Source: Oscillospiraceae bacterium (lineage in GTDB: Bacteria; Bacillota; Clostridia; Oscillospirales; Oscillospiraceae). Taken from it: a stretch of DNA of 36,865 bases. Shown here one piece after another: positions 2,202 through 13,988 of this stretch. The translations under genes and the position numbers were made by a program. Under the pieces are notes generated by a model, which saw nothing but the letters and a program-made list of their open reading frames with translations, searched no databases and was not told the origin of the DNA. How positions within the stretch are numbered: the first letter of the stretch is position 1; each line of letters starts with the position of its first letter. Location of the stretch: assembly GCA_015068365.1 (NCBI GenBank), contig SVKR01000175.1, forward strand, positions 1 through 36,865, read 5' to 3'.

Positions 2202-2591
2202 ATGCTGGACGAGATGCTGGATGAGATTGAGCAGTATGTCCGCTCCTGCGTGGACAATCACATCGGCCTGCCGGCCATTGAGATCATCGGCTCGAAATGG
2301 CAGATGCGGATCCTGTTCCACATGTGCCGCAAGAGCCCGCGCCGCTTCGGGGAGCTGAAACGGCGGCTTCCGGGGATCTCCAATGCGGCGCTGGCCGCGA
2401 CGCTGCACACGCTGCATTCCTACGGGCTGATCACCCGCACGGAGTATGACGAGCTGCCGCTTCGGGTGGAGTATTCCATCACGGAAGCGGGGGTGGAGCT
2501 GATGAAGCTGGACCACAAGATCGTGGAGTGGGAAAAGAAATACTGCAAGCCGCCGATCACGGAGGCAAAACAAAGGGATGAGCTCATTTGA
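2202..2591 (+). CDS. HxlR-family winged-helix transcriptional regulator
   Basis: IGSKWQMRILFHMCRKSPRRFGELKRRLPGISNAALAATLHTLHSYGLITRTEYDELPLRVEYSITEAG; ATG with ggggggag RBS. Confidence 0.92.
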   Translation: MLDEMLDEIEQYVRSCVDNHIGLPAIEIIGSKWQMRILFHMCRKSPRRFGELKRRLPGISNAALAATLHTLHSYGLITRTEYDELPLRVEYSITEAGVELMKLDHKIVEWEKKYCKPPITEAKQRDELI

Positions 2592-2604
2592 GCTCATCCC
2601 TTTT
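2572..2604 (+). terminator. Intrinsic terminator overlapping the HxlR stop codon
   Basis: AAAGGGATGAGCTCA-tt-TGAGCTCATCCCTTT, 15-bp perfect stem ending in T-run. Confidence 0.85.
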
Positions 2605-2638
2605 GCTGGGGTGGAGAAAAAAGGATGGAGAAGAATTC

Positions 2639-5600
2639 TTACTTCATCACGCGCCACAGGAAGTACACCACGTCGGCGCGGGGGCAGTCCACGCCCGGGG
2701 CGACGGTGATGTCCAGTCCCTCCGTCACGCCGGCGGACTTGGCCCAGGACTCCGCCTCAGCGTACCAGCCGTCCGTGCCGATGCCCTGCGCGCGGTACAG
2801 GAAGGTGAGGATATCCGCCGTGGAGCAGGTCAGCGCCGGGGAGAAGTGAGCGGCATCCGTTCCCTTGGTGATGCCCTTTTCCACGGCCCAGAGCACGGCC
2901 TTGAAGTAGTAGTCCGCCTCGCTCACGTCCGCGAAGGGGTTCGCGGTGCTGCTCGGCTCCGGCTTGCCGGCGGCGCGCCACAGGAAGGTCACCGCCTGGC
3001 CGCGGGTCACGGTGCTCTGCGGGGCGAAGTGGGTGGCGTCCACGCCGTTGGTGACGGCTTTTTCCACGGCCCACTGCACCGCGTCATGGAAATAATCCTC
3101 CGCCTTGACGTCGGCAAAGCTCTGATTGCCCACGTGGATGACGGCATAGGCGTCCGCAGCGCCCTGGGCCTTGACGGCCACGCAGTAGTCGCCCTCCGCC
3201 GGGAAGCTGAGCTGGACCCGGCCGTTCACGGCCTTGGTGCCGCTGTCGACCAGGCTGTCCCAGCTGCTGCCGACGTACACGTCGCCGTTCATGGGGATTT
3301 GTGCGAAGGTGTAGCTGGGCTGGGACTCCCAGGTCCTGGCGATCAGGTTCACCGTCCCGCCGGCGGCGATGCGGGTCTCCTCCAGGTTCACATAGCTGCT
3401 GGTGACCTGGGGGTGGGCGCTGTCAAAGAGGCTGAGATAGTAGCAGTTGCCCGGCTGGGCGGGGTCGGTGACGGCCACGTAGCCGTCGTCGGAGTTCATG
3501 GCCAGGACAAAAGCGCCGTCCACGGTCATTTTCAGGGTGGAGGAGGCCTCCGCCTCATCCAGGCCCCAGACCTTGGTGAAGTAGCCGCGGTTGCCCGCCG
3601 TGACCTCCGGGTTGTCCGTGCCGGGATACTCGGCATCCTGCAGGGCGCGGAAGGCGTCGGCAATGGTCATGTTCTCCCTGTAGGGCACGGGGTAGAGGAT
3701 GATCTTCTCGCCGCTCTTGCCGGTCACGGCGTCGGCGCCGAGGGTCATGGTGAGGTAGACATAGCCCGGGTCACGCAGCACGTCGTAGTCATACTGGGCG
3801 GTGACGACCAGGTGGCGGTTGACCTTGTCAAAGGCGGTGTCCCAGCCGGTGTAGTTGTAGTGGTCGAACTGCGGCACCTCCGGCGCGGTGGCTGCGCCGC
3901 CGGGCTCGACATACTCGGTCTTCAGCGTGGCGTACTCCACGCCGTCGCGGAATTCCACATAGTACGGGCCGTTCTCATGCAGCACATGGCCGTCCATGTC
4001 GTAGTAATCAAAGGTCAGGCTGCCGTCGGGCTCGATGGTGGTGATCAGGCCCTTTGCCAGCACCCAGGCGCTGCCGCCGTAGGCGCCGGTGTACTCCACG
4101 TCGGAGATGCAGCCGGCGGAGAGATAGGTGAAGTTGATCTGGCGGGTGGTGCCGTTCTGGTCGATGGTGATGGTGTCGCCCGGACGGTAGACCATGTCAT
4201 AGCTCTCGTCAAAGTCGGAGTGGTTGTGGCCCCAGAGCACCACCAGGTTCGGGTACTTGTTGAACACATCCAGCAGCTTGTCGGCGTTTTCCTCCTTGCG
4301 GTCGCCCCAGAAGTGGATGGGGAAGTGGGTCAGGACGAAGATCGGCCGGTCGGTGGGGGCGGTGGCCAGATAGGCGTCAGCGCGCGCGATGTCCTCCTCG
4401 CTGTAGCCCTGGCTGTACTTGCTGGCGATGGCGCCGGCACCCAGGCAGTAGATGATGTAATCGTCGGTCTTCATCGCCTCGCCGACGCGGAAAAGACGCT
4501 GGGCAATGGGGTTTTCATAGTACTCCATGTAGTTGCCGCCGGCGTCGGGATACCATTCGTGGTTGCCGAAGGTGAACACCGTCGTGCCGATGGCGCCGGC
4601 GTCCACCTTGCCGTCCAGATAGGAGAAGACGGGCTCCAGGTTGCTCCAGTACTCCTCCGGCGTGGCGCTGTAGGCGCTGCCCATGTCGCCCAGAGAGCCC
4701 ATCGCGTCGATGTAGCCCACCTCTTCGGAGACCTTGTCGAACCAGACCTGAAGGTTGTTCTGCGCGTACTTGGTGGAGTGGTGGATGTCGGTGACGAAGG
4801 CCAGGGTGATGGAGCCGTCGGCGTTCTTCACGGCGGCGCGCTCCACGCAGGGCAGGTCACTGCCGTCGGGGATGAACTTTTCCTCCTTGGCGACCTTGGG
4901 CATCTCCCGGCCGTAGAGGGTGAATTTCGCGGCGTCGGACGCCTCCAGCGACTGGTCGAACTTGCCGGTGGCGGCGTCAAAGGTCAGGTAGTACATCTTG
5001 TGCATGAGGATGGTGCCGGTGGTGGCGTCGTACTCAAAGGTGCGCCCGCCGGTGAAGGTCATCAGACCGTGGCTGCCGGCGAAGATGAAAACGCCCGGCG
5101 TGCCGGCGCTTTCCACCGTGCTGCCCTCGCGTGCCGTCCAGGCCACGGCGGGGGCGGGGGAGGTGATGGTGTCGCCCGCCACGGTGACGGGCTGGGAGGT
5201 CAGCGCCTCGCCGTCATAGGCCAGGGCCGCGCCGGACTCCGTGACGATGACGAACTGGTCATCCTCCGTGAAGGCGTCGGTCTTCGTGAATACCGGAACC
5301 GGCTCATACAGCGTGATGGCAGCGGCCTCGGACGCTTCCAGCGACTCGTCGAACTTGCCGGTCGCGGCGTCGAAGGTCAGATAGTACATCTTGTGCATCA
5401 GCACGGTCTTCGCCGCGGCGTCGTACTCGAAGGTGCGGCCGCCGGTGAAGGTCATCAGACCGTGGCTGCCGGCGAAGATGAAGACGCCCGGCGTGCCGGC
5501 GCTTTCAATGGCGCTGTCCTCGCGCGCGGTCCACACGGCCGATTTGTCGCTGAGCGTGATCACGCCATCGGCCTCGGTGACGGACTGGGATGTGAGCGCC

Positions 5601-5797
5601 TCGCCGTCAAAGGCCAGCGCGAACTTCCCGCCGGCTGTCTCCGCGACGACCAGGTAATCCATCCCCTCCGTCATCGCCTCGGCGGGACGGTAAGCCGTGC
5701 CGGGCTCCGCGGCCAGCGCGGGCGCGCCCAGCAGGGAGCACAGCATTGCCAGCATCAGCAGGAATGCCAGAATGTGGGTTCCGTTTCTCGTTTTCAT
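2639..5797 (-). CDS. Secreted metallophosphoesterase with C-terminal S-layer homology (SLH) domains
   Basis: Signal peptide MKTRNGTHILAFLLMLAMLCSLLGAPALAA; calcineurin-like motifs TDIHH, GDMG, FGNHEW, LTHFP, GHNH; C-terminal SLH repeats (FADVKAEDYFHDAVQWAVEKAVTNG...). Start set at internal Met with RBS aggagg. Confidence 0.9.
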   Translation of the reverse strand: MKTRNGTHILAFLLMLAMLCSLLGAPALAAEPGTAYRPAEAMTEGMDYLVVAETAGGKFALAFDGEALTSQSVTEADGVITLSDKSAVWTAREDSAIESAGTPGVFIFAGSHGLMTFTGGRTFEYDAAAKTVLMHKMYYLTFDAATGKFDESLEASEAAAITLYEPVPVFTKTDAFTEDDQFVIVTESGAALAYDGEALTSQPVTVAGDTITSPAPAVAWTAREGSTVESAGTPGVFIFAGSHGLMTFTGGRTFEYDATTGTILMHKMYYLTFDAATGKFDQSLEASDAAKFTLYGREMPKVAKEEKFIPDGSDLPCVERAAVKNADGSITLAFVTDIHHSTKYAQNNLQVWFDKVSEEVGYIDAMGSLGDMGSAYSATPEEYWSNLEPVFSYLDGKVDAGAIGTTVFTFGNHEWYPDAGGNYMEYYENPIAQRLFRVGEAMKTDDYIIYCLGAGAIASKYSQGYSEEDIARADAYLATAPTDRPIFVLTHFPIHFWGDRKEENADKLLDVFNKYPNLVVLWGHNHSDFDESYDMVYRPGDTITIDQNGTTRQINFTYLSAGCISDVEYTGAYGGSAWVLAKGLITTIEPDGSLTFDYYDMDGHVLHENGPYYVEFRDGVEYATLKTEYVEPGGAATAPEVPQFDHYNYTGWDTAFDKVNRHLVVTAQYDYDVLRDPGYVYLTMTLGADAVTGKSGEKIILYPVPYRENMTIADAFRALQDAEYPGTDNPEVTAGNRGYFTKVWGLDEAEASSTLKMTVDGAFVLAMNSDDGYVAVTDPAQPGNCYYLSLFDSAHPQVTSSYVNLEETRIAAGGTVNLIARTWESQPSYTFAQIPMNGDVYVGSSWDSLVDSGTKAVNGRVQLSFPAEGDYCVAVKAQGAADAYAVIHVGNQSFADVKAEDYFHDAVQWAVEKAVTNGVDATHFAPQSTVTRGQAVTFLWRAAGKPEPSSTANPFADVSEADYYFKAVLWAVEKGITKGTDAAHFSPALTCSTADILTFLYRAQGIGTDGWYAEAESWAKSAGVTEGLDITVAPGVDCPRADVVYFLWRVMK
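4910..5665 (-). repeat. Intragenic tandem duplication (about 120-130 aa, two units)
   Basis: Block SAGTPGVFIFAGSHGLMTFTGGRTFEYDA...LMHKMYYLTFDAATGKFD.SLEAS.AA occurs twice; DNA near-identical around 5050-5113 and 5442-5507. Confidence 0.9.
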
Positions 5798-5928
5798 GAT
5801 AGCCCTCCTCTTTTTCTCGTTTCTCCGGCGGCAGATGACGCCGGGCCGTTTCAAGTTCATTGTAGTTTTACGGCGGAGGGCTTACAAGTAGTATTATTTT
5901 TTTTACCAGGCAGAGGGAGAAGCACATC

Positions 5929-9340: not shown

Positions 9341-9871
9341 TCATTCCGGCAGGATGTAGCCGTCCTCCCGGATCATCTGCTTGCACTCTTCAATGGCGGC
9401 GGCCCAGTCCGGCTTGATGTCGGCGGGCGGGTTGAACAGCTTGACGCGGTCAACGCAGAAATCGACCTCGTTGGAGATGTCGTTGTAGAAATACCAGCGG
9501 CGCTTGCGCTCCCGCAGGTGGTACACATCGTCCGGCGCATCGTCGATGGCCTTCCAGTTCACCTTGTAGGCATAGGCCGGGTCTTCCCGGATGCGCTCCA
9601 TGGCGGTGGTGATCTTCTCATCCCGGATGCTCATCAGCTTGTGCTGAAATGCCTTCCCGTTGACAAAGCGCGCGGTGCATTTGCTCTCGACCCGCTCGAT
9701 CTCCTCCGGGGTGTAGCTGTGCTTCAGAACCACGATGGGGACAAGCTCGCCGTGGTCCCATTCGTAACCGTTGCCCGGCTCGCAGAACAGGCGGTTATAG
9801 CAGTCCGCGCGGTTCTTGAACAGCTTCGGGAACTTGTCGTACATACGCTGGATTGTCATTTCAACGTTCAT
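9341..9871 (-). CDS. Hypothetical protein
   Basis: MNVEMTIQRMYDKFPKLFKNRADCYNRLF...; start at ATG with ggagcg RBS; upstream extension of the track ORF reads into the repeat element and is rejected. Confidence 0.7.
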   Translation of the reverse strand: MNVEMTIQRMYDKFPKLFKNRADCYNRLFCEPGNGYEWDHGELVPIVVLKHSYTPEEIERVESKCTARFVNGKAFQHKLMSIRDEKITTAMERIREDPAYAYKVNWKAIDDAPDDVYHLRERKRRWYFYNDISNEVDFCVDRVKLFNPPADIKPDWAAAIEECKQMIREDGYILPE

Positions 9872-9890
9872 TGTTGCGCTCCTTTTCGTG

Positions 9891-10094
9891 ATAATGATTA
9901 TCGGATGGCGAAAACAATCGTTACTTCGATTGTTTTCGCTGCCAAACGACACGTTTGGCAGCGAATGATTTGAAAAATCATTCGCCCGATGCTCATTGCA
10001 ATGAATACATGACAAAACAGCGTTGCTGTTTTGCTGCACCGCAAAGCGGTGCGGCGGAACGCTTTGCGGCGTTTCGCCATCATGTAATCATTAT
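9891..10094. repeat. Multi-hairpin dispersed repeat, copy 1 (204 bp, MITE-like)
   Basis: Terminal inverted repeats ATAATGATTA-tcgg-ATGGCGAAA / TTTCGCCAT-catg-TAATCATTAT enclosing consecutive perfect stem-loops; nearly identical to 13204-13392 apart from a 15-nt indel. Confidence 0.9.
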
Positions 10095-10171
10095 GACTGC
10101 GTTGCTTACAGTATAGCACAGATTCCTTCGTTTGTCATTATCGGCTTTCAAAACAGGCGCTGCCGCCGGGC

Positions 10172-12193
10172 TTATTTCACGTAAGAATAGCGCACCTCGG
10201 CGGTGACGGTGCCGCCGTAGGTCAGATGCTCGGAGGCGCGGCCGTCGTGGGAGTTGCCCTGCTGGGTGATGACGGGGTGCAGCTGGCCCATTGCCCCGCG
10301 CAGCTGCGCCTCCCGCACGGCCTGGGCCGCGGCGGCGGCGCGCGCGATCTCCGTGGCCTCCTCCAGATCCCGGTGCTTTTCGCTGCCGTCGGGGGTGTGC
10401 ACCATATAGGTCACGCCGCCCTCGTCCCACTGGGTCACGGTGACGCTGGCCCGGGCGATCAGCTCCGCCATCACGGAGCCGATGGCGTTGCCGATCTCGG
10501 CGTGTTCCGGCAGGATGCAGCGCGTCCCCAGCGCCTTCGCCACCTCCGGGAGGAACACATGCGCCGGGGCGCCCATGCCCAGAAGCACCATGTCGGTGCG
10601 AATGGGCGTGTCGATCAGCGCAAAGCCCTCCTGCCCCCGGCGGTTCCAGGCCTGCTCGGCCAGAAGCTCGACCTGCGGCTCCAGAGCGCTGTCAAAGGCC
10701 GCTCCGTAAGCCTTGGCCAGCAAAATGCGCACCAGATTTGTGTACAGCTTCCGGCCCACGGCGCTGTAGGCGGCCTCTGCCAGCGCCGCGACGTCCTCCG
10801 GGGCGTGGGGCAGGTTGCTGTTTTTCAGCTCGCACTCCGCCGCCAGAAGCGAGGCTTCCCGGTCAAATTCGGTGTAATCGCCCTTGATGTGCATGAAGTC
10901 CGTCGGCGTCAGGCCGCAGCGCATGACGACGCCCTCCTGCTCCAGCCGCTCGGTGTCCCGGATGTAAGAGCCAAGGCCCTTTTCTTCCTTCAGACGGAAG
11001 ACGGACAGCGGCCCGTCGCGCAGCGCGTCCACCAGCTTCAGCTCCTGGGCGCTGTAGCGGCCGCGGTCCGCCGGGTCTCTCATCAGAGCGTAAAACTCAT
11101 GGAAGCGGTAGCGCTCGGTGGAATAGCCGTTTTGCAGCACGTCCCGGAGCATGGGCACGATCTGCGGCCAGCGTGCCGCGGCGGAGCACAGCGGGATCGC
11201 CCGCCGGGGGTGGACCGTCAGCACGCCCTTTTCGATGCGGATGGTGCTGTCGCCGCCCAGGGCGAAGGTGTCGACGAACACGCCGTCCACCGAGGTGCGC
11301 CAGCCGCCCACGCGGATGCCCTGGGCCTCGTTCACGGTCTTGCCGCCGCAAACCATGGAGACGTCCGTGGTGGTGCCGCCCATGTCCACGACCATGTAGT
11401 TTTCCTCGTCGGTGAAGGCCTTGCCCGCCAGGATGCTGGCCGAGGGGCCGGAGAGAATGGTCTCCACGGGCTTGAGCATGGTGGCGTCGGTGCTCATCAG
11501 GCTGCCGTCGCTGCGCACGACCATGACCGGCGCGGTGCAGCCCCGGGCGCGGATGTCCGCCAGCGCCACGGCGATGAACTCGCGGATGACGGGCAGCAGC
11601 CTGGCGTTCAGCAGCGCGGTGGCGCCGCGCTGGATCACGTCGATGCGGTCGGTCAGCTCGTTGGCGCAGACGCAGGAAAGCCCGTGGCGGGCCAGCAGCT
11701 GTGCCTTGAAGGCCTTTTCGCAGGGCGCGCCGGTGTTGGCGCCGTAAAGCTCCGCCGCGGCCATGTAATCCGTCTCCGCGATCCAGGGGTCATAGTCCCG
11801 GAACAGCGCGTCCCAGTCCGGCTCGTCGATGAAGCTGCCGTCGGCGCTGCTGTGGGTGTCCACACAGCGGACGGCGCTGCGCTGAATGCCGTACTGCGCC
11901 TCAACGCCCAGCCGCTCCATCAGCTCGTCCGTCAGCCCGAAGATCACCAGCTTGGCGCGGGCGCCCTTGTTCTCCACGCAGGCGTTGGTCGCCAGCGTGG
12001 TGGAGAGGGAGACGAGCACCGCGTCGCGGATGTAGTCCTGGGGCAGCGTGTCCAGCGCCTTGGCGATCCCGATGGACAGGTCCTCGCGCGTCGTCAGGGT
12101 CTTGCCCTTCGCCAGCACGCGGTTTTCGCTGTAGTCGTATGCGACGGCGTCCGTACAGGTGCCGCCGGTGTCGATGCCGATCGCTATTTTCAT
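10172..12193 (-). CDS. Hydantoinase/oxoprolinase family protein
   Basis: MKIAIGIDTGGTCTDAVAYD, NYMVVDMGGTTTDVSMV, LGGDSTIRI; start reset to internal ATG. Confidence 0.92.
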   Translation of the reverse strand: MKIAIGIDTGGTCTDAVAYDYSENRVLAKGKTLTTREDLSIGIAKALDTLPQDYIRDAVLVSLSTTLATNACVENKGARAKLVIFGLTDELMERLGVEAQYGIQRSAVRCVDTHSSADGSFIDEPDWDALFRDYDPWIAETDYMAAAELYGANTGAPCEKAFKAQLLARHGLSCVCANELTDRIDVIQRGATALLNARLLPVIREFIAVALADIRARGCTAPVMVVRSDGSLMSTDATMLKPVETILSGPSASILAGKAFTDEENYMVVDMGGTTTDVSMVCGGKTVNEAQGIRVGGWRTSVDGVFVDTFALGGDSTIRIEKGVLTVHPRRAIPLCSAAARWPQIVPMLRDVLQNGYSTERYRFHEFYALMRDPADRGRYSAQELKLVDALRDGPLSVFRLKEEKGLGSYIRDTERLEQEGVVMRCGLTPTDFMHIKGDYTEFDREASLLAAECELKNSNLPHAPEDVAALAEAAYSAVGRKLYTNLVRILLAKAYGAAFDSALEPQVELLAEQAWNRRGQEGFALIDTPIRTDMVLLGMGAPAHVFLPEVAKALGTRCILPEHAEIGNAIGSVMAELIARASVTVTQWDEGGVTYMVHTPDGSEKHRDLEEATEIARAAAAAQAVREAQLRGAMGQLHPVITQQGNSHDGRASEHLTYGGTVTAEVRYSYVK

Positions 12194-12210
12194 CGCAGGG
12201 TCCTTTCCTT

Positions 12211-12945
12211 TTATGGCGCGCTGCGCGCCTCGTCGGATTCCATCGCCACGTTCAGCGCCTCGTCGACGACGGCGGTATAGTACAGGTCTTCCTCCTCCAT
12301 GATGGGGGAGCGGCTGTGCACGCACACGGCGGTGGTGCCGGGCTTCAGCCCGGTGAAGGTGAGGATGACATCATAGGGCGAGCCGTCCTCCGGCTCGTCC
12401 CGGCGGGTGCCGTAGTCCCGCTCCATGGTGCAGGAGAGCAGGGCAGGGTCCGCGATCTCCACGGAGTATTCCGGCCCGCCGCCGTCAAAGGAGGACAGGC
12501 GCAGCACGGCGTTTTGCGGCGCTTCCGGCGCCGGCCCCGTCACGATTTCGCCCGTCCAGTCGATGATCCCGCCGAACTCATAGACCCGGGTGTAGCCCAT
12601 GCCGGCCAGCTTCTCCGCCGCCTGCTTGCTGCGGTTTCCGCTGCGGCAGTATATGAGCAGGATCTGGTCATAGTCCGGCAGAGCCTCCGGCGCGTCGCAG
12701 CCGATGAGCTCATTCGGGACCAGTATGGCGCCGGGGATGTGGCCGGCGTCATATTCCTCCTGCCGGCGCACGTCCACGACGACGTGGCCGTCCTCGCGGG
12801 CCATCATCTCCTTCGCGGTCTCCTGGTCGATCTGGGTGTAGCCTTGCTTCGGCATGTCATCACCTTCCTTGCCTGAATGCGCGGAATCAGAGCCGCAGCC
12901 TGCGAACAGCAGGACAAAAATCAAAAGAAACAGCGCTTTTTTCAT
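12211..12945 (-). CDS. Rhodanese-like domain lipoprotein
   Basis: Lipobox LLFAGCGS; VVVDVRRQEEYDAGHIPGAILVPNE... LLIYCRSGNRSKQAAEKLAGMGYTRVYEFGGIIDW with active-site CRSGNRS. Confidence 0.92.
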   Translation of the reverse strand: MKKALFLLIFVLLFAGCGSDSAHSGKEGDDMPKQGYTQIDQETAKEMMAREDGHVVVDVRRQEEYDAGHIPGAILVPNELIGCDAPEALPDYDQILLIYCRSGNRSKQAAEKLAGMGYTRVYEFGGIIDWTGEIVTGPAPEAPQNAVLRLSSFDGGGPEYSVEIADPALLSCTMERDYGTRRDEPEDGSPYDVILTFTGLKPGTTAVCVHSRSPIMEEEDLYYTAVVDEALNVAMESDEARSAP

Positions 12946-13169
12946 AGCTTTTCAAACCTCTGAAACGTTGTTCCGTCCCGCGTGACGGTCTCCAGCCACA
13001 TGTCCGCCGGGCGTACCCACATGCCGCCGTCGCCGTAAAGGGCGCGGTACACGACCATGGCTTCCTCGGTCTCGGAGTGGCGGGCGAGCGCGAGCACTTC
13101 ATATTCCCTGCCCTTGAAATGGCGATAGCGGCCGGGCGCGATCTGGGCCGATGCTTCCTCATAGGTCAT
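12942..13169 (-). CDS. DUF1653 domain-containing protein
   Basis: PGRYRHFKGREYEVLALARHSETEEAMVVYRALYGDGGMWVRPADMW; ATGA overlap with the rhodanese lipoprotein gene. Confidence 0.9.
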   Translation of the reverse strand: MTYEEASAQIAPGRYRHFKGREYEVLALARHSETEEAMVVYRALYGDGGMWVRPADMWLETVTRDGTTFQRFEKL

Positions 13170-13203
13170 GGCTTTTCACCGCCTTTGCTTCATTAGAATC
13201 ATT

Positions 13204-13392
13204 ATAATGATGATCGGATGGCGAAAACAATCGTTACTTCGATTGTTTTCGCTGCCAAACGACACGTTTGGCAGCGAATGATTTGAAAAATCATTCGCCC
13301 GATGCTCATTGCAATGAATACATGGAAAAACAGCGTTGCTGTTTTGCTGCACCGCAAAGCGGTGCGGCGTTTCGCCATCATGTAATCATTAT
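13204..13392. repeat. Multi-hairpin dispersed repeat, copy 2 (189 bp)
   Basis: Same element and same orientation as 9891-10094; lacks the 15 nt GGAACGCTTTGCGGC; otherwise about three substitutions seen by eye. Confidence 0.9.
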
Positions 13393-13412
13393 AACGGCGC
13401 GCTGCGCAGATT

Positions 13413-13988
13413 TCAACCTGCCGCGCCGCCGGATGCCTCCCGCCACAGAAAGACCGCGATGGGCGGGTTGCCGGGGCGGTTGCGCCAGTCACAGCAAAGG
13501 ACGCTGAAGCGCTGCGCGTCCACGCCCCGGAGATAGTCCAGCAGCGCGTCGCGCTCCTCAAAGCCGTTCGCCCCGCCGTAATAAAGCGCCAGCGCCATCA
13601 CGCCGCCGGGCTTGAGCAGCCTGAGCCCGGCGTCCACCGCGGCGACGGAGGTGTCCGCCCGGGTCATGATCTGCGCATCGCCGCCGGGCAGCCGCCCGAA
13701 GTTGAACACGATGCAGTCCACGCTGCCCGCTGCGGCGTAGGTTTCCATGTGTACGTGGCTGTCCAGATGCAGCTCGGCGTGCAATCCCTCGGCGGTGAGC
13801 AGCGCCGCGGTCTGCTCCAGGGCAGCGGGCTGAATGTCAAAGGCCAGTACGCGGCCGTCCGGCCCGGAAAGGCGGCAGAGCAGCGCCGTGTCCCGCCCGC
13901 GGCCGGCGGTGGCGTCGATGCACAGCGCCCCGGGGCGCACATGCTGACGCAAAAAATCGTGCACCATGGCAAGGGTGTTTCGTTCCAT
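13413..13988 (-). CDS. mnmM: Class I SAM-dependent methyltransferase, MnmM/YtqB-like
   Basis: ALCIDATAGRGRDTALLCRLSGPDGRVLAFDIQPAALEQTAALL ... DCIVFNFGRLPGGD ... GGVMALALYYGG; start reset to ATG 13988. Confidence 0.8.
   Translation of the reverse strand: MERNTLAMVHDFLRQHVRPGALCIDATAGRGRDTALLCRLSGPDGRVLAFDIQPAALEQTAALLTAEGLHAELHLDSHVHMETYAAAGSVDCIVFNFGRLPGGDAQIMTRADTSVAAVDAGLRLLKPGGVMALALYYGGANGFEERDALLDYLRGVDAQRFSVLCCDWRNRPGNPPIAVFLWREASGGAAG

Follow-up and report, generated by a model that had tools for sequence, protein, structure and literature searches.

The window, the whole 36,865-nucleotide stretch that we analysed, carries two copies of what is very probably a non-autonomous, MITE-like mobile element of Oscillospiraceae, moved by an enzyme acting in trans and with its hairpins acting as DNA. 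The element occurs between genes at many sites that are unrelated to one another, with exact ends and no gene, and its six hairpins stay complementary as their sequence changes. Comparison of alleles shows that a related copy was inserted at an AT (preferred context TT-AT-AA), with that AT duplicated. The family is apparently new and undescribed, of a known kind and with an unusual anatomy. It is abundant in rumen and gut Oscillospiraceae, moves without a known partner and interrupts genome assemblies wherever a copy lies. Its copies provide natural replicates on the upkeep of hairpins (compensation without an excess of G-U pairs, repeated inversion of a loop, solo halves and minimal forms), and its anatomy makes it testable whether multi-hairpin DNA is read as a DNA structure by a mobilising enzyme.

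The first-pass annotation had placed the 204-bp hairpin block correctly at positions 9891–10094. Its five listed hairpins are all present, and a sixth was missed. Folded as single-stranded DNA, the 204 bases reach −74.7 kcal/mol, compared with −31.6 ± 3.4 kcal/mol for 200 dinucleotide shuffles of the block (z = −12.6; equalled by 0/200). The predicted fold (MFE and consensus) consists of two halves, each a cloverleaf-like set of three hairpins, that meet at TCATT-GC-AATGA; each end of the element pairs with one side of this central palindrome, TCATTGCAATGA, creating two three-armed domains. An outer inverted repeat had been proposed to close all of the hairpins into one cloverleaf; that repeat exists (9888–9913 and 10072–10097, 85% complementary), but the fold is divided into two domains. 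The terminal inverted repeats of copy 1 are 23 bp each, and the same half-site, AATGA, is found at each end, in the centre and within hairpin 3. Copy 2 lies on the same strand and is 91% identical to copy 1, without 15 bp. As had been noted, no transposase is encoded: the element has no ORF, its 204 bp lie within the size range of a MITE (<600 bp, no transposase gene), and every size form that we saw is too small to house a transposase. The coordinates of these features are collected in the table.

Table. Features of element copies 1 and 2 and of the sequence adjoining copy 1, in window positions.
Feature	Position	Strand	Basis or remark
Gene downstream of copy 1	9341..9871	-	No Pfam match; 19 bp between start codon and element
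Element copy 1, including one AT per end	9891..10094	+	204 bp
Element proper	9893-10092		ATs assigned to target duplication from empty alleles
AT, left copy of 2-bp target duplication	9891..9892	.	
AT, right copy of 2-bp target duplication	10093..10094	.	
Left terminal inverted repeat ATAATGATTATCGGATGGCGAAA	9891..9913	+	
Right terminal inverted repeat (reverse complement ATAATGATTACATGATGGCGAAA)	10072..10094	-	
Left domain, hairpins 1-3 within an AATGA...TCATT stem	9893..9997	+	MFE fold and consensus fold
Hairpin 1, 13-bp stem	9908..9939	+	Fold and covariation
Hairpin 2, 9-bp stem	9940..9960	+	Fold
Hairpin 3, 11-bp stem	9961..9985	+	Near-invariant AATGA/TCATT in arms
Central palindrome TCATT-GC-AATGA, junction of the two domains	9993..10004	+	Sequence; conserved among copies
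Right domain, hairpins 4-6 within an AATGA...TCATT stem	10000..10092	+	MFE and consensus fold; found solo elsewhere
Hairpin 4	10013..10033	+	Fold
Hairpin 5	10036..10052	+	Fold
Hairpin 6	10053..10078	+	Fold; overlooked in the first-pass annotation
Sigma-70-like promoter ATGACA-17-TATACT facing copy 1	10110..10138	-	Consensus match; 1 found, 0.4 expected
Element copy 2, 15-bp deletion in hairpin 6	13204..13392	+	189 bp

The window's own genome (G000; 2.25 Mb in 189 contigs) contains 28 strong matches to the element, most of them about 99% identical and with unrelated flanks. Most of these matches end a contig inside the element, so that they represent between 16 and 28 sites; such contig ends are expected of a repeat that breaks assembly. 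Within the same genus, genome G002 carries a subfamily that is 84% identical and genome G001 has no element match. Across the family, BLAST is positive in 16/401 genomes, while a covariance model finds relatives in 19/401 genomes and 11/106 genera, with about 21 copies in G301 and about 14 in G006, both well assembled. The first-pass annotation would have been undermined by a repeat of two copies only, with no homologues and no empty sites in relatives; the searches of the host and its relatives found homologues in both, and empty sites are described below. A search of GTDB genomes with the right-end pattern returned at least 114 stretches, and the titles among the matches listed are all of uncultured Oscillospiraceae, Ruminococcaceae, Clostridiales, Eubacteriales or Clostridia. 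The element had no match in the phage and plasmid collections searched, and no searched viral contig has its core pattern. Open papers hold no description of the family that we could find, which is weak evidence of its novelty. Many dispersed copies in unrelated flanks are a feature of MITEs in the broad sense.

Intact copies begin with ATAATGA (with few point variants) and finish with TCATTAT, and the sequence outside them is unrelated. These exact common ends and unrelated flanks recur in more than 100 copies, among which the terminal inverted repeats are conserved, as in MITEs. Over 80 two-sided sites, the flank preference is T (60%), T (65%), AT, A (65%) and A (52%); the preferred target is symmetric, TT-AT-AA. 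Because the AT is palindromic and invariant, a duplicated target can be separated from a fixed element end only by empty sites. Within a genus of 102 genomes, the site upstream of rpsT (S20) is occupied in G363, G419 and G470 and empty in the other relatives examined. The empty alleles read CAATTTT-AT-AGGAGG (G006, G482, G431, G432, G481, G402 and G437) and the occupied alleles read CAATTTT-AT-[AATGA...TCATT]-AT-AGGAGG, indicating that the net insertion is the element plus one AT. This comparison of occupied with empty sites, which the first-pass annotation had suggested, thus finds a 2-bp duplication of AT, with the empty-allele AT taken from alleles whose flanks are closest to the occupied ones. 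Sites compared between G000 and G002 are compatible with AT duplication and less clean than rpsT; the 2-bp duplication rests mainly on rpsT, the one well-populated locus. The terminal ATs of copy 1 behave as a target duplication, and the element proper is therefore 9893–10092.

The 2-bp duplication, the AT-rich palindromic target and the terminal inverted repeats could also belong to a classic MITE derived from an IS630/Tc1-mariner transposon with a TA target, as is RUP; TA ends are found in most known bacterial MITEs (PMC2229807). We consider this origin highly unlikely. The duplicated pair is AT within TTATAA, and we rejected a TA duplication as it would need ATAT in the empty site, whereas the rpsT empty alleles show one AT. 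Furthermore, DDE_3 (PF13358, IS630) is found in 1/13 element-bearing genomes and not in the other 12, including those that are 94–99% complete. RUP of Streptococcus pneumoniae (107 bp, with IS630-Spn1 as its proposed mover) shares with our element a short length, terminal inverted repeats, intergenic location, many copies, the lack of a gene and insertion at a dinucleotide, but it uses TA rather than AT, has a proposed partner IS and is not described as a six-hairpin array (PMC2229807). The Correia or NEMIS repeats of Neisseria are similarly small (about 100–150 bp), hairpin-forming, bounded by terminal inverted repeats and often close upstream of genes (PMC10969869, PMC2229807). They differ in their TA ends, their sequence and their host. 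They are not known to form two domains of three hairpins.

The first-pass annotation had also offered a single-stranded DNA-transposed element, which would be of the IS200/IS605 or REP/RAYT type and moved by a hairpin-recognising Y1 transposase. The hairpin-rich, intergenic, small units of variable composition invite this reading, and REP and BIME sequences are likewise dispersed intergenic palindromes that join into mosaics and occur as halves and wholes. The present element is larger and more regular than a REP/BIME unit, as had been said, and unlike it has conserved terminal repeats. A Y1 enzyme is expected to leave no duplication and to need a fixed and asymmetric target on the 5′ side of the left end, whereas the target here is symmetric and its AT is duplicated. 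Y1_Tnp (PF01797) is present in 7/13 element-bearing genomes and was not found in G000, G006 (94% complete), G389 (99%), G438, G442 and G459, all of which carry the element. Together, these observations leave transposition by a Y1 enzyme extremely unlikely. The absence of both IS630-type and Y1-type enzymes from several element-rich, nearly complete genomes makes a resident mobiliser of either type unlikely.

An autonomous relative sharing the terminal repeats, which had been suggested as a check, was not found: neither a scan of all loci for pairs of ends by position weight matrix nor a search of five genomes for the end patterns detected ends enclosing a transposase gene, in MAGs where repeats are under-assembled. 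The end scans returned two interrupted copies only, locus L088 and the 356-bp form described below. In the preferred explanation, that of a MITE-like element mobilised in trans, the enzyme would recognise the element's ends (AATGATNAT and the inner GCGAAA) and would probably not be a resident IS630-type or Y1-type transposase. Insertion at AT could proceed either by a 2-bp stagger or through a matched 2-bp core. The hairpin interior may matter as DNA, forming cruciforms or single-strand hairpins during replication or transposition, and either selection or template-switch correction might preserve perfect pairing in the hairpins, which would not be needed as one particular RNA.

Within this explanation, a serine recombinase (resolvase, invertase or IS607-like) acting on a matched AT core is a tentative possibility. 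The ends carry a strict AT and the site is symmetric; joined ends would form the palindrome TCATT-AT-AATGA, the target TT-AT-AA offers the same core, and the internal TCATT-GC-AATGA resembles a relic of that site bearing a different core. An AT core that matches between the two ends and the target is, however, also expected of a DDE enzyme with a strict AT target. Hairpin 3, in which the near-invariant AATGA/TCATT are the same five bases as at the element's ends and centre, is the hairpin most often inverted in other copies (13 minority-orientation copies, compared to 0 for hairpin 6), and occurs in both orientations, for example as TTCAAAGAA in 12 copies and TTCTTTGAA in 8. The crossover site of the gamma-delta/Tn3 resolvase is TTATAA, with an AT core and inverted half-sites, and resembles the element's target. 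This likeness is limited to the target, and a literature search brought up no account of it. Serine recombinases (PF00239) are present in 13/13 element-bearing genomes, but they are nearly as common in apparently element-free relatives (10/12), and no recombinase gene is linked to the element's ends. A serine recombinase is consequently permitted as a candidate mobiliser.

The history of the rpsT site admits more than one account. In a different genus, genome G085 carries an element at this very base and in the matching orientation, and the rpsT gene tree requires at least three changes of occupancy state, while a single clade of rpsT copies is compatible with the element tree (AU p 0.90). The site may have undergone repeated insertion or, after one old insertion, repeated precise loss. 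A doubtful reading would join these observations to the hairpins: a gene-less element whose DNA hairpins must be perfect for it to move or replicate, and which a recombinase at AT cores inserts, excises cleanly and flips at hairpin 3. Clean excision would then produce the patchy occupancy of rpsT.

We measured how pairing is kept while the letters change across 84 aligned copies and 77 stem pairs. Standard pairs make up 97.2% of stem cells, and 40 of the 77 pairs have been altered on both sides. Doubly changed cells number 305, compared with 86.4 ± 6.1 after shuffling, which does not remove relatedness among copies; sliding the partner column, a control that retains this relatedness, yields no more than 63. 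With two G-U-dominated border pairs left out, G-U pairs in the hairpin stems (about 50 cells) are about as frequent as A-C mismatches (about 54). A one-strand RNA should favour G-U, so their parity suggests that DNA, both strands or palindrome correction is involved. At the rpsT site, the elements of G419 and G470, which are sisters in the rpsT tree, differ at 39/198 positions, with seven pairs fully compensated and four broken; if they descend from one insertion, pairing has been maintained at a fixed site. At another orthologous site (L091 and L151) the element is 98.5% identical and the adjoining intergenic windows are 63–94% identical. The hairpin array evolves under constraint, which probably acts at the level of DNA.

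The same data bear on the proposal, also raised in the first-pass annotation, that the block is a structured RNA. In this view it would be a leader or a small RNA with a gene that has multiplied and a fold selected in the transcript. The covariation is strong, the two rpsT sisters are both occupied and show the compensated and broken pairs given above, and a promoter and a start codon enclose copy 1 as well as the rpsT copies; if the promoter-like site at 10110–10138 is real, copy 1 is in the 5′ leader of the gene at 9341–9871. However, a one-strand RNA tolerates only G-U, which is not above A-C; Rfam 15 covariance models have no match at E ≤ 1 in window positions 9700–13600; and the copies show no clear orientation bias (18 with tandem genes and 12 against). 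The sites facing a start codon (54/70) are not enriched over other intergenic gaps. Selection as a single-strand RNA is accordingly quite improbable.

According to a simple gene caller, the genes neighbouring the copies are divergent in 24 cases, tandem in 30 and convergent in 16, which resembles the pattern of other gaps (47, 85 and 29). We dropped a preference for start codons or orientation, which did not rise above the intergenic baseline, and also the insertion of the element into a −10 box so as to restore a promoter, as, wherever a promoter is visible, its −10 box is intact and upstream of the element. The genes around the copies are ordinary, and include an alpha/beta hydrolase, a hydantoinase-like protein, a rhodanese, a DUF1653 protein and a putative rRNA methylase.

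The size of the element varies widely around its common ends. Many copies are missing one or two hairpins, four loci have solo right halves with their own ATAATGA start (L061, L084, L108 and L073), and a minimal form of about 58 bp retains a single hairpin (L112, in G389). At the other extreme, a 356-bp form in UBA3758 occurs at the unrelated loci L171 and L183, each time with the same 152-bp insert inside hairpin 3. The solo halves and the 58-bp and 356-bp forms suggest that the element's ends suffice for the mobility of other DNA. Such ends, common to the size variants, together with the many copies, the empty sites and the lack of an ORF, bear out the non-autonomous MITE that was the first of the original proposals. 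The BOX repeat of pneumococcus is also a modular dispersed repeat whose modules are gained and lost; compared by description only, it is not known as a paired, two-domain hairpin array.

Several loci have more complex arrangements. Two elements stand in tandem at L144 (RUG13498, positions 5600–5900) with a single AT common to both, and the composite at L141 (RUG12356, positions 2677–2885) has the element's ends and two copies of hairpin 6 around unrelated hairpins. In G301, the elements at L079 and L080 sit within a larger repeated unit with flanks that are 94–96% identical, showing that some copies travel in a bigger repeat. The 58-bp form at L112 in G389 and a 162-bp form at L081 in G301 lie beside the same gene, at neighbouring but not identical positions. 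Two other short dispersed repeats (one with the ending GTCATTGCGAGGCCCCGCAAGGGGCC..., the other GTCATTCCGAGCCAGTGCGCACACT...) occur in many G002 contigs and were met at the right flanks of L013 (G000:C37) and L025 (G000:C64). Finally, a weak model match at L122 (G232:C37, positions 2589–2753, minus strand) is a distinct GC-rich hairpin array, running from TATAATAACCGC... to ...ATGATATAATA, and is possibly a separate, related family.
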